Below, piece by piece: positions 30,229 to 34,513 of a stretch of DNA of 38,905 nt (position 1 is its first letter; every line of letters begins with the position of its first letter). Source of the DNA: Halorussus litoreus (lineage in GTDB: Archaea > Halobacteriota > Halobacteria > Halobacteriales > Haladaptataceae); contig NZ_QLVG01000055.1 of NCBI RefSeq assembly GCF_003382685.1, positions 1 through 38,905 on the forward strand, given 5' to 3'. The notes below the pieces were generated by a model. It did no database searches. It was not told where the DNA came from and saw only the letters and a list, made by a program, of their open reading frames with translations. Both the position numbers and the translations under genes were made by a program.

Positions 30229-31626
30229 TCAATCGTCCTCGCCAGCTACTTCCGCGGTCACGTCGTCGGACATCTGCTCGGCGATTTCGTCGGGAACGTC
30301 GTCGTCGCCCAACCGCTCGCGGACGAACGCCGGCGGTTCAGCGGCCGCGTTCCCACCGCCGGGCGCATCCGCGTCGTCCCCGAAGCCGGGGTCGAACAGC
30401 TGGAGCGCGGTGTTGATGGTCGTCCAGTCGTCCTCCGCGGCGGCGTCGCGCAGGCTCTTGGTCGGGGCCGCGAGCAACTGGGACACCAGCGCGTCGGCCA
30501 TCGAGGCGACGACCTCGCGCTGGTCCGCCGAGAGGTCCCCGTGCGCGTCGAGCTTGGTCAGCGCTTCGGAGAGTTCGCGCTCCTTGACGCGCTCTGCGCT
30601 CTCGTACATCGCGGAGACGACCTCGTCGGCGCGCTTGCGCTTGTACCCCTCCAGCAGGCGGTCGAACTCCCGGTCGATCATGGCCTCGACCGACTCGGCG
30701 GCGGCGCGTCGCCGCCGCGCGGTCTCGTCGGTGACGGTCTCCAGTGCGGTCATGTCGAACACCGACACGCCGGCGAGCGCGTTCGCGGCGGGCGCGACGT
30801 CACGGGGCTGGGCGATGTCGACCACCAGTAGCTCCCCAGCGTCAGCGAAGTCCTCGGCGTCGAGCACGTGACTCTCGCTCCCGGTGGCGCTGACCACCGC
30901 GTCCGCGTCGGCCAGCGCGGCGTCGAAGTCGTCGAGCGCGACCGCGCGGGCCTCGTCGGCGTCCACCTCGCCGGCGAGTTCCCCGGCGCGTTCCGGAGTG
31001 CGGTTGGCGACGTAGAGCGTCTCCACGTCGGCGTCCGCGAGCGCGTGGGCCGCGACGGTGCCCATCTCGCCGGCACCCACGACCACGGCGGTGCCCGCGG
31101 CGAGGTCGGTCTCGGTTTCGAGCAGTTCGACCGCCGCGCTGCCGACCGACACCGCGCCCTCGTTGATCGCGGTCTCGGTCCGGGCTCGCTCGCCGACGTG
31201 GATGGCCTTCGTCACCGCGTCGTCGAGTATCGGGCCGAGAGCGCCCGCCTCCGCTGCGACACTTTGGGCGTCGCGCAACTGGCCGAGAATCTGGTCCTCG
31301 CCGAGCACGAGCGATTCGAGCCCGCTCGCCACCCGCATGAGGTGGCGCAGGCTCTCCTCGTGGCTCATCTCGACGACGGAGTGGTCGCCCACGTCGGGCG
31401 CGAAGTCGTCGAGCACCGCTCGCCCGGTCGCCGCGGCGTCGGTCACCACGTACGCCTCGAAGCGGTTGCACGTCTGGAGCGCGAACGCCTCGCGGACCGG
31501 CGGCGCGTCTGTCAACCGGCTCAGCACGGTCTCGTCGTCGACGTGACAGGCGGCCTCGACGGTGTCGAGGCTGGCCTCGTCGTGGCTGACCCGGACGCCG
31601 GTGACGACTCCGGTCGCCGCGCTCAC
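30229..31626 (-). CDS. hemA: Glutamyl-tRNA reductase
   Basis: A 465-residue HemA, which reduces Glu-tRNA to glutamate-1-semialdehyde in the first step of C5 tetrapyrrole (haem, cobalamin) synthesis. The catalytic domain has the nucleophile Cys53 in ALQTCNRFEAYV and SGLESLVLGEDQILGQL. The NADPH domain carries VVVGAGEMGTVAAHALAD and VYVANRTPERA-like sequence (LYVANRTPERAGEL). The C-terminal dimerisation domain is about 300-410. An Asp/Glu-rich tail (about 420-465) is an unusual extension. The start MSAATGVVTGVRVSHDEASL agrees with the family. The gap upstream has a 20-bp tandem repeat. The other haem genes are not adjacent. Confidence 0.94.
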   Translation of the reverse strand: MSAATGVVTGVRVSHDEASLDTVEAACHVDDETVLSRLTDAPPVREAFALQTCNRFEAYVVTDAAATGRAVLDDFAPDVGDHSVVEMSHEESLRHLMRVASGLESLVLGEDQILGQLRDAQSVAAEAGALGPILDDAVTKAIHVGERARTETAINEGAVSVGSAAVELLETETDLAAGTAVVVGAGEMGTVAAHALADADVETLYVANRTPERAGELAGEVDADEARAVALDDFDAALADADAVVSATGSESHVLDAEDFADAGELLVVDIAQPRDVAPAANALAGVSVFDMTALETVTDETARRRRAAAESVEAMIDREFDRLLEGYKRKRADEVVSAMYESAERVKERELSEALTKLDAHGDLSADQREVVASMADALVSQLLAAPTKSLRDAAAEDDWTTINTALQLFDPGFGDDADAPGGGNAAAEPPAFVRERLGDDDVPDEIAEQMSDDVTAEVAGEDD

Positions 31627-31770
31627 GGGGTACCCCTCGTAGAACGTCCGTCGGATAGAGAGCGTTTCGAAGTCATACTGTTGTCCTCACACCCACGTGC
31701 GGTCTCGTTTCCGGAGGTTGGAACGGCCCGTACGTAAAGCCTTCCAAACGCGAGAGGTCCACCGCTTCCC

Positions 31771-31850
31771 GCCGTCTCGCTGCTGTTCCCGTCGTCTCGT
31801 TGCTGTTCCCATCGTCTCGCTACTGGTCTCATGGTCTCGTTGCCTTTCTC
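31771..31850. repeat. Four tandem 20-bp units upstream of hemA
   Basis: The units start at 31771, 31791, 31811 and 31831 and begin GCCGTCTCGC, GTCGTCTCGT, ATCGTCTCGC and ATGGTCTCGT; each is exactly 20 bp. The first two differ at only three positions, and later units are more diverged. They lie in the 238-bp gap between the DUF5778 gene end and the hemA start, just upstream (minus strand) of a TATA-like GCTTTACG at 31733-31740. The even 20-bp spacing, about two helical turns, would align sites on one DNA face. Confidence 0.8.
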
Positions 31851-31864
31851 GCCGTCTCCGCCGG

Positions 31865-32269
31865 TCACGACCCCTCGACGCCGGTCACGTCGAAGCCGAG
31901 TTCGCGCACGCCGTCGAGGATAGCTTCGTGGTCGGCACTGGCCTCGTAGTAGAACACCACGTCGAAGCTGCCCTCCCGGAGGAGCTGCTGGCACTCCCAG
32001 ACGAACGACTCGTCGTCGAGCGTGAGCCCCTGATGCTGGTTCGAGGCGAACTCCGAGTCGTCGGTGCCCGAGTAGACGAACGTGTCTTTCGGGTCGTGGC
32101 CCGCGTGCTCGGCGATGATCTCGCCCACGTCGACGGTCGCCTGGTGCATCTCGACGTCCTCGTCGCCGCCGAAGTCGGTGTGGACGACCGCACCGTTCAG
32201 TTCGATCTCGCCCGGTTCGAGCAACTGCTTGGTGCGTCGGTAGAGCTCCTCGTCGAGCGCGTCTTCCAT
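31865..32269 (-). CDS. DUF5778-type haloarchaeal protein
   Basis: A 134-residue acidic soluble protein matching the haloarchaeal DUF5778 pattern: LYRRTKQLLEPGEIELNGAV at the start, HQGLTLDDESFVWECQQLLR in the middle, and a conserved end with FDVVFYYEASADHEAILDGV. Function unknown; no known catalytic motif or membrane helix. It lies upstream of hemA on the same strand with a 238-bp gap containing tandem repeats, so co-transcription is doubtful. Downstream of it the 3' region is GC-rich and otherwise empty. Confidence 0.82.
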   Translation of the reverse strand: MEDALDEELYRRTKQLLEPGEIELNGAVVHTDFGGDEDVEMHQATVDVGEIIAEHAGHDPKDTFVYSGTDDSEFASNQHQGLTLDDESFVWECQQLLREGSFDVVFYYEASADHEAILDGVRELGFDVTGVEGS

Positions 32270-32371
32270 GTCCGAAGCAAGCCGACCGGCGGTTAAACGC
32301 CCTGCGATTCGGCCGACAGAGAAGTCTCTACGCGGGTCGCTCCAAGAAAATCACTGTTCGACTGGGTACCG

Positions 32372-32566
32372 CTACAGACGCGTGAGATTCGTCGCGCGTG
32401 GTCCCTTGTCGGCCTGTTCGATGTCGAATTCGACTTCCTGCCCCTCCTCGAGATCGGGACCGCCGACGTCTTCCATGTGGAAGAAGACGTCTTCCTCCGA
32501 ATCCTCGCTGTCGATGAAGCCGTATCCGCCAGTGTCGTTGAAGAAATCGACCGTACCTTTCGCCAT
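32372..32566 (-). CDS. cspA: Cold-shock-domain protein
   Basis: A 64-residue CSD protein, an RNA/DNA-binding OB fold. RNP1-like GGYGFIDSED and RNP2-like DVFFHMEDV are both present, and the N-terminus is MAKGTVDFFNDTG. The C-terminus ends GPRATNLTRL as in haloarchaeal CspA proteins. Start at 32566; the in-frame Met at 32593 would precede the likely transcript start, because the TATA-like CTTTTTAAG (minus strand, about 32594-32602) lies about 30 bp from 32566. Acidic residues between the RNP motifs (DSEEDV, DLEEGQEVE) reflect salt adaptation. Confidence 0.94.
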   Translation of the reverse strand: MAKGTVDFFNDTGGYGFIDSEDSEEDVFFHMEDVGGPDLEEGQEVEFDIEQADKGPRATNLTRL

Positions 32567-32717
32567 TGCGTTCGACCGTATGTCGCCCCACACTTAAAAA
32601 GGTATGCCACACGGTGTATCTGATTTGTGAGTCTGTGAGTCGGGTATTCGGAGGGGAACCGAGTCGGTCGGGTGTCAAAAGGCTAATTGCGCTCGGCCGC
32701 GTCGGTGGGACCAACGG

Positions 32718-33656
32718 ATGTTGAAGTGGGTACAGCGGCGCGTGGGAGTCGCCTACGAACGGCTTCTCCAGCGGGAGATTTCGGGGGCACCGACACACGT
32801 CGCCGTCATCCAGGACGGGAACAGACGATACGCCAGCAAGCAGGGCGAGGACGCCCCGGACGGCTATCGGGCGGGCGCACAGACGACCGAACGCGTGCTC
32901 GACTGGTGCAAGGACATCGGCGTCGAGGAACTGACGCTGTACGCCTTTTCGACCGAGAACTTCGACCGGCCCGAGAACCAGCAAGAGGTCCTGTTCGACC
33001 TCCTGGAGGAGAAGCTCTACGAGTTCGGCGACGACGACCGGGTCCACGACGGGAATGTCTGCATCCGCGCCATCGGCGACGTGGACCGACTTCCCGAGCG
33101 CGTCCGGGAGGCGGTCGACTACGCCGAGCGCCGGACCGCCCACTACGACGAGTTCACGCTCAACGTCGCGCTGGCGTACGGCGGTCGGAACGAACTCCTC
33201 GGCGCGGCTCGCGAGGTCGCCCGCGCGGTCGAGGACGGTGACCTCGCGCCGGCGGACATCGACGTGGCCGAGATCGAGGACCGTATCTACGACCGCCCGC
33301 TCCGGGACGTCGACCTCATCATCCGGACCGGCGGCGACGAGCGCACCTCGAACTTCCTGCCGTGGCACGCCAACGGCAACGAGGCCGCGGTGTTCTTCTG
33401 TACGCCGTACTGGCCGGAGTTCTCGAAGGTCGACTTCCTCCGGGCGGTCCGAACGTACGAGTCCCGCGAGGAGTCGTGGCGGCGCACCCGCGCCGAGCGC
33501 GCACTCGCGCTGGTGAAGGCCCTCGGCGGCGTGGAACTCGACGAGGCTCGCGGCGTCATAGAGCGCTTCCGAGGGAAGCTCCCCGAGGAGTCGGCCGCGG
33601 AGGAACTCGGTGTCGAAGAGCTAGACGTCGACGGGGAGCCGTCGTCGCTGGACTGA
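32718..33656 (+). CDS. uppS: cis-Prenyltransferase, catalytic-type subunit (UppS family)
   Basis: A 312-residue cis-prenyltransferase that would extend a short allylic diphosphate with isopentenyl diphosphate to make polyprenyl diphosphate, the precursor of the dolichol-type carrier for S-layer and archaellin N-glycosylation. The catalytic aspartate is Asp33 in HVAVIQDGNRRYA; FSTENF is present; the diphosphate-binding RTGGDERTSNFLPW is intact. The C-terminus, beyond SREESWRRTRAERALAL, lacks the RRFG end seen in homodimeric bacterial enzymes and instead has an about 45-residue tail. The convergent gene at 33702-34310 encodes a shorter paralogue that does have RRFG. TATA-like AAAGGCTAATT (32676-32686) gives a short leader. 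Confidence 0.9.
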   Translation: MLKWVQRRVGVAYERLLQREISGAPTHVAVIQDGNRRYASKQGEDAPDGYRAGAQTTERVLDWCKDIGVEELTLYAFSTENFDRPENQQEVLFDLLEEKLYEFGDDDRVHDGNVCIRAIGDVDRLPERVREAVDYAERRTAHYDEFTLNVALAYGGRNELLGAAREVARAVEDGDLAPADIDVAEIEDRIYDRPLRDVDLIIRTGGDERTSNFLPWHANGNEAAVFFCTPYWPEFSKVDFLRAVRTYESREESWRRTRAERALALVKALGGVELDEARGVIERFRGKLPEESAAEELGVEELDVDGEPSSLD

Positions 33657-33701
33657 AATCGTTCAGTACGTGGCCACAGTTCCGGGGAGTATCAGAGACC
33701 T

Positions 33702-34310
33702 CTACCGCCCGAACCGACGCTGACGGTTCTTGTAGTCCAGCAGCGCGCGGACGTAGTCGCGCTTCCGGAAGTCCCGCCAGTTCACGTCGGTGAAGTACAG
33801 CTCCGAGTACACCGACTGCCAGATCATGAAGTCCGAGAGCCGCTCCGCGCCGGTCTTGAGGACCAGATCCGGATTCTCGGGGAACACGAGATGCTTGTCG
33901 ACCTCGCTCTCGTCGATGTGCTCGGCGGACAGGTCACCAGCTTGCACGTCCTCGGCGATCTTCTGGACCGCGCCCGCGAACTCGTGCTTGCCGCCGAGGC
34001 CGATGGAGAACTGGATGGGCGCGTCGGCGCGCTGAGTGTCCTCGGGCCCGCGGACGGCGAGTTCGCGCGGGGCCGACACCCCTTCGAGTTCGCGCCGGAG
34101 CGTCGGGGCCGCCTCGGGGTCGAGCACGCCGACGTACACCGTCACGCGCTCGGCCCCGTAGTCGAACGCCCACTCGAAGAACGCTTCTAGCGTGGCGTAC
34201 GCGCCCTGTTCGAGCAGGTCGCGCTCGGTGACGATGACGGCGACGTGGCTCGGGGGGTCGGCGTCGTGTCTCCGGAGTCGGGCGGCGAGATACCGGTCGT
34301 ACAGTCCCAC
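33702..34310 (-). CDS. cis-Prenyltransferase homologue lacking the catalytic Asp (NgBR-like in motif pattern)
   Basis: A 202-residue UppS-family protein. At the P-loop position the partner's HVAVIQDGNRR becomes HVAVIVTERDL, so the catalytic Asp is Thr28 and the diphosphate-binding Arg is lost. It retains KTGAERLSDFMIWQ and the beta-strand YSELYFTDVNW, and it ends KNRQRRFGR, with Arg199-Phe200-Gly201 matching the C-terminal RxG motif that, in dimeric cis-prenyltransferases, reaches into the partner's active site. The split of Asp and RxG between this and the adjacent protein is the pattern of eukaryotic DHDDS/NgBR. The genes converge with 45 bp between stops. It is unlikely to be active alone. 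TATA-like GTTTAGGAC (minus strand, 34329-34337) suggests a leaderless start. Confidence 0.82.
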   Translation of the reverse strand: MGLYDRYLAARLRRHDADPPSHVAVIVTERDLLEQGAYATLEAFFEWAFDYGAERVTVYVGVLDPEAAPTLRRELEGVSAPRELAVRGPEDTQRADAPIQFSIGLGGKHEFAGAVQKIAEDVQAGDLSAEHIDESEVDKHLVFPENPDLVLKTGAERLSDFMIWQSVYSELYFTDVNWRDFRKRDYVRALLDYKNRQRRFGR

Positions 34311-34435: not shown

Positions 34436-34513
34436 ACGACCGCAACAGCAACCGCAACCGCAACAGCAACCACGACCGTAACAGCAACCGCGACCGCAAC
34501 AGCAACTGCGACC
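34436..34513. repeat. Hexanucleotide tandem repeat, 13 units (GCAACC-like)
   Basis: Thirteen consecutive hexamers such as GCAACA, GCAACC, GCGACC and GTAACA run without a slip. The type matches the opposite strand of the array at 11451-11526. It lies in the 520-bp gap (34311-34830) between the divergent prenyltransferase homologue and radB. No coding gene is assigned there: ORFs across it are simple Thr-Ala or Val-Ala runs. The gap also holds several hairpins (see 34554-34710). Confidence 0.82.

Follow-up and report, generated by a model that had tools for sequence, protein, structure and literature searches.

The window analyzed here, a stretch of 38,905 nucleotides from the genome of Halorussus litoreus, contains two neighboring open reading frames that encode members of the cis-prenyltransferase (cPT) family PF01255. 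In homodimeric bacterial UppS, Asp26 and the RxG motif are on a single chain, whereas neither chain of the window pair has both; the fold and most active-site residues are alike. This raises the question of whether the two genes encode subunits of one enzyme with a divided active site or two proteins that function separately. A first-pass annotation made from the DNA letters had proposed the former, likening the pair to human DHDDS and NgBR. The first gene (32718..33656, + strand) starts with ATG and encodes a uppS-like protein of 312 aa, called the long subunit, and the second (33702..34310, - strand) starts with GTG and encodes an RxG-bearing, non-catalytic protein of 202 aa, called the short subunit. 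Both assignments come from the open reading frames, profile matches, and AlphaFold models. The genes are convergent, with 45 bp from stop codon to stop codon, and are therefore not co-transcribed. A profile search of the H. litoreus genome (3.84 Mb, 99.8% complete) identified the window pair as its only PF01255 members. Halorussus species are the nearest named relatives. The same genome encodes an AglB-type STT3 oligosaccharyltransferase (961 bits), which makes a need for a polyprenyl carrier plausible.

The long protein matches PF01255 over the entire domain (E 1.6e-67) and scores 230 bits against TIGR00055, above the equivalog cut-off. It contains the catalytic P-loop IQDGNRRYA at residues 31-39 (32808..32834, + strand), in which D33 corresponds to E. 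coli D26, and the IPP/S2-site motif RTGGDERTSNF at residues 203-213 (33324..33356, + strand). At the RxG site of homodimeric enzymes it has S-W-R (residues 253-255; 33474..33482, + strand). These residues align to R242-F243-G244 of E. coli UppS and thus RxG is truly absent from the long protein, as the first-pass annotation had claimed. The protein continues with a C-terminal extension from about residue 258 to 312 (33489..33653, + strand) that AlphaFold predicts to be partly helical, then of low confidence; the predicted C-terminal helices span residues 237-268, 274-283, and 290-297, with confidence falling along them and pLDDT below 50 after residue 298. Several relatives have no such extension and their long protein stops near the end of the domain. 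The extension holds an RFRG, which we considered as a displaced RxG and rejected, in agreement with the annotation; it is approximately 30 residues beyond the RxG site, lies within an unconserved region, and carries F where an RxG would have R. Family models name this gene uppS, so it could be taken for a one-gene enzyme.

The short protein matches PF01255 with an E-value of 3.1e-27, with its C-terminal half alone scoring (profile positions 107-219); like the long protein, it passes the curated cut-off. In place of HVAxIMDGNxR it has the degenerate P-loop HVAVIVTERDL at residues 22-32 (34215..34247, - strand). It contains no equivalents of D26, N28, R30, or R77 and, therefore, the known chemistry is not expected from the short protein alone. 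Its C-terminus, NRQRRFGR, includes an RxG formed by R199-F200-G201 (33708..33716, - strand), after which a single residue precedes the stop codon, and short proteins generally finish one residue past the RxG glycine. The sequence, which starts MGLYDRYLAARLRRHDADPP, was also read for an N-terminal membrane anchor and no long-enough hydrophobic stretch was found ahead of the domain. The convergent pair and all motifs that the annotation had described were located where it placed them. The short subunit of L186-L189, which belong to one genus (g8) of the same taxonomic order, has an acidic, low-complexity insertion; it is about 20 residues long and lies between the RGP motif and the second half of the domain.

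The alignment comprised 152 long and 152 short homologs together with E. coli UppS and with DHDDS and NgBR from human, two sequences that had been verified against PDB chains 6z1n_A and 6w2l_B. Using E. coli numbering, D26, N28, R30, R77, R194, R200, and S202 were each present in 152 of 152 long proteins, none of which had R242 and G244 jointly. By contrast, all 152 short proteins had G244 and 151 had R242, the remaining one having K at this position (KxG). The D26 column of the short proteins was T in 128 of 152 and D in two (L178, L184), both of which are without DGNxR; an intact DGNxR was found in 0 of 152 short proteins. Some form of RxG occurs after residue 240 in 16 of 151 long sequences, scattered and in no case in register. 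The long protein of L205 has a YREG near the register of the RxG site, but shifted. The separation of the Asp and RxG columns is also kept outside the haloarchaea and in extra long paralogs. Thus, the split between long and short subunits is complete and is not a matter of chance.

The annotation had also noted that the two genes are adjacent. Genomes were sampled from the phylum of the window (Halobacteriota) and named haloarchaeal loci were taken from a scan of genome contigs. The long gene was within the flank in 71 of 80 named haloarchaeal loci (the best 80 matches listed). Among these listed matches, the linked genes were convergent in 71 of 71 loci, and in 33 the open frames were no more than 150 bp apart. 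In other Halobacteriota, eight of 24 loci were linked and convergent, with seven of these within 15 bp or overlapping. When the long and short genes are near each other in these loci they are always tail-to-tail. Because this order is found in both haloarchaeal and other Halobacteriota loci, the arrangement is likely old, with linkage likely lost in Methanosarcina, where the genes are unlinked. Opposite strands and the absence of linkage in Methanosarcina would fit long and short proteins that form their own homodimers in different pathways, for instance to make two polyprenol lengths, with an adjacency that is old but incidental. We consider this very improbable because the short protein is without the D26, N28, R30, and R77 equivalents and because the tail-to-tail order recurs without exception in the linked haloarchaeal loci listed and also in other classes.

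The two genes also occur together almost universally, as would be expected of subunits of one enzyme. Of the 28 family genomes, 27 had the pair and the one lacking it is 62% complete; one long and one short gene were found in 24 of 24 diverse genomes of the phylum that were examined. A profile search found PF01255 in 390 of 391 genomes of the class. From a table reading, exactly two copies are present in about 373 of the class genomes; three copies occur in 13 genomes, four in two, and a single copy in two, and the one genome without any is 82% complete. Where genomes with three or four copies were examined, the additional copies were mostly of the long type, accompanied by one or two shorts. 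The short-type profile had matches in 386 of 393 phylum genomes, the weaker of which may be the long protein. Two haloarchaeal drafts contain a single gene of the pair, the short gene in one that is 99% complete (G098) and the long gene in one that is 88% complete (G400); these exceptions are probably assembly gaps. Three genomes of family f18 without a short-profile match (G415, G424, G433; 84-91% complete) yielded no member in a PF01255 search.

Several genomes depart from the simple pair. Seven have two long-type cPTs and a single short: G094 (L196/L210), G087 (L195/L216), G172 (L192/L214), G377 (L194/L218), G408 (L202/L213), G131 (L200/L215), and G333 (L204/L217). RxG is missing from both longs in these genomes, an arrangement that recalls Rer2 and Srt1 of yeast, which have Nus1 as their common partner. 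In family f20 (G417, G426; L193, L198), the long proteins terminate right at the domain and the shorts are very divergent (43-47 bits) with frames of about 165 aa; this is possibly a reduced form of the pair. G029 contains, alongside a normal pair, a divergent PF01255 protein (L220:1486-3354; PDGHRRYA, RTGDNPRRECLSGF) that is not of the long, short, or MM_0014 type.

A heteromeric archaeal cPT is already known. PMC8131916, quoting Emi et al. 2019 (BBRC 520:291), describes MM_0618 and MM_1083 of Methanosarcina mazei as a heteromeric cPT with C45-50 products that probably supplies the glycosyl carrier lipids, and a later paper, PMC8904820, cites this pair in support of a requirement for two different subunits in archaea. 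Like the window pair, it is from an archaeon of the same phylum and has two different PF01255 subunits. The Methanosarcina long and short types branch within the long and short groups and are about 42% and 38% identical to the window long and short proteins, although their genes are unlinked whereas the window genes are convergent neighbors. In a Methanosarcina genome of 5.75 Mb (G714), the long and short types are accompanied by a third, which matches PDB 7vq9 and MM_0014. M. mazei has three cPTs of which MM_0014 is the third type so that, by elimination, MM_0618 and MM_1083 should be the orthologs of the window long and short types. The archaeal two-subunit enzyme put forward in the annotation is thus well supported by sequence but is not new in kind, having been reported from M. 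mazei in 2019. The window pair very probably extends this arrangement to essentially all haloarchaea. A full-text search of mostly open-access literature returned no earlier description of a two-subunit cPT from haloarchaea.

The absence of RxG from the long protein is by itself no proof that it depends on a partner. This is because MM_0014-type cPTs, which have no RxG and end in TLGG, are active without a partner (PMC8131916) and human DHDDS homodimers retain weak activity (PMC7573591). By this reasoning the long protein could be a cPT that works as a homomer, with no need of RxG or a partner, and the short protein could be a separate pseudo-enzyme with a regulatory or scaffold role. Several observations make this improbable. 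The MM_0014/MA1831 type (PDB 7caq, 7vq9) consists of archaeal PF01255 proteins without RxG that form a tree branch separate from the long and short groups; the long protein falls outside that branch and has no TLGG tail, and the PF01255 search found no gene of that type in H. litoreus. In addition, an invariant RxG in an otherwise dead paralog, together with near-universal co-occurrence, calls for an active-site role, and the orthologous M. mazei pair functions as a heteromer (PMC8131916).

From the motif split, co-occurrence, linkage, and fold of each chain, together with the single tree grouping of each subunit and the AglB gene, the window genes very likely encode the catalytic long subunit and the RxG-bearing, catalytically dead short subunit of one heteromeric cPT. 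In such an enzyme, the long subunit would use D33 with its DGNRR and RTGGDERTSNF motifs to bind both substrates, an allylic diphosphate and IPP, along with Mg2+, and would elongate the chain. The two subunits would meet at the dimer interface typical of cPTs, and the R199-F200-G201 tail of the short subunit would be inserted into the long active site to complete the IPP site. The product would be a polyprenyl diphosphate of about C45-C60 that gives rise to a dolichyl or polyprenyl phosphate carrier for AglB-type N-glycosylation. The annotation had suggested a long polyprenyl product, which probably overstates its length because the characterized M. mazei pair makes C45-50, shorter than the C85-100 of human DHDDS/NgBR. 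We infer the physical heterodimer, mutual dependence for activity, chain length, and physiological role from the orthologous pair of M. mazei and from the structure of human DHDDS/NgBR.

We built AlphaFold single-chain models on phylum-wide alignments. The long model (pLDDT 87) had Z scores of 27-30 to cPTs, including human DHDDS. The short model (pLDDT 85) has a cPT fold, with Z scores of 14-15.6 to bacterial and plant cPTs and, over residues 1-202, a nearly tied 14.2-14.7 to human NgBR. Residues 165-168 and the last residues of the short model are of low confidence; such a tail would fit one that is ordered only in a complex.

In the human enzyme, the RxG-containing C-terminus of NgBR crosses the dimer interface and helps form both substrate sites of DHDDS, kcat is about 400-fold higher in the complex than with DHDDS by itself, and a transmembrane segment lies at the N-terminus of NgBR (PMC7573591). 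DHDDS/NgBR, yeast Rer2-Srt1/Nus1, and the window pair all have the catalytic Asp on one chain and RxG on the other, and both NgBR (...QRLGK) and the short protein (...RRFGR) end one residue after the RxG glycine. The transmembrane segment of NgBR has no counterpart in the sequence of the short protein. Among PDB entries, the long profile scored highest against DHDDS (253 bits versus 238 for E. coli UppS). DHDDS has a C-terminal helix-turn-helix that forms the heterotetramer; the extension of the long protein is predicted to be partly helical, at falling confidence, in a single-chain model. The short profile scored 44 bits with NgBR, 25 with Nus1, and up to 122 with ordinary bacterial cPTs. Thus, the likeness to DHDDS/NgBR drawn in the annotation applies to the division of motifs and the proposed mechanism, whereas the short sequence itself is nearer to ordinary cPTs than to NgBR. 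We considered the short protein as an ortholog of NgBR by sequence; the profile scores do not support this and the tree is only suggestive.

The tree included DHDDS, NgBR, yeast Nus1 (checked against 6jcn), and two bacterial UppS. Long and short sequences formed one group each, consistent with a single duplication and division that preceded radiation of the phylum. The archaeal shorts were joined by NgBR and Nus1 (96/84), and DHDDS was placed beside the archaeal longs (93/70). A clade of DHDDS, NgBR, and Nus1, as expected from an independent eukaryotic origin, was not rejected (p-AU 0.28), and NgBR and Nus1 are very long branches. For these two reasons the eukaryotic placement is a lead, not a result. 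Derivation of DHDDS from an archaeal long and of NgBR/Nus1 from an archaeal short, with the duplication and active-site division predating eukaryotes, is a tentative reading that we think is rather less probable than its alternatives. If the pair was inherited, the two-subunit synthesis of dolichol in eukaryotes was not reinvented. The origin of the eukaryotic pair becomes a testable question, and the full-text literature searched contained no mention of cis-prenyltransferase together with Asgard.

On the reading that the pair forms one enzyme, the glycan carrier of practically all haloarchaea and most of the phylum would come from an enzyme encoded by two genes, its active site probably being split across chains. 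With no transmembrane anchor, the archaeal pairs would lend themselves well as models of human DHDDS/NgBR, which is linked to disease. The surroundings of the pair in the window include ordinary neighbors upstream at 30229-32593, which are predicted to encode a glutamyl-tRNA reductase, a DUF5778 protein, and a cold-shock domain protein. On the other side, an 18-bp tandem repeat (CGACCGCAACAGCAACCG, 4.3 copies) at 34437-34513 lies in the gap that separates the short cPT gene from a Rad51/RadB-like gene.
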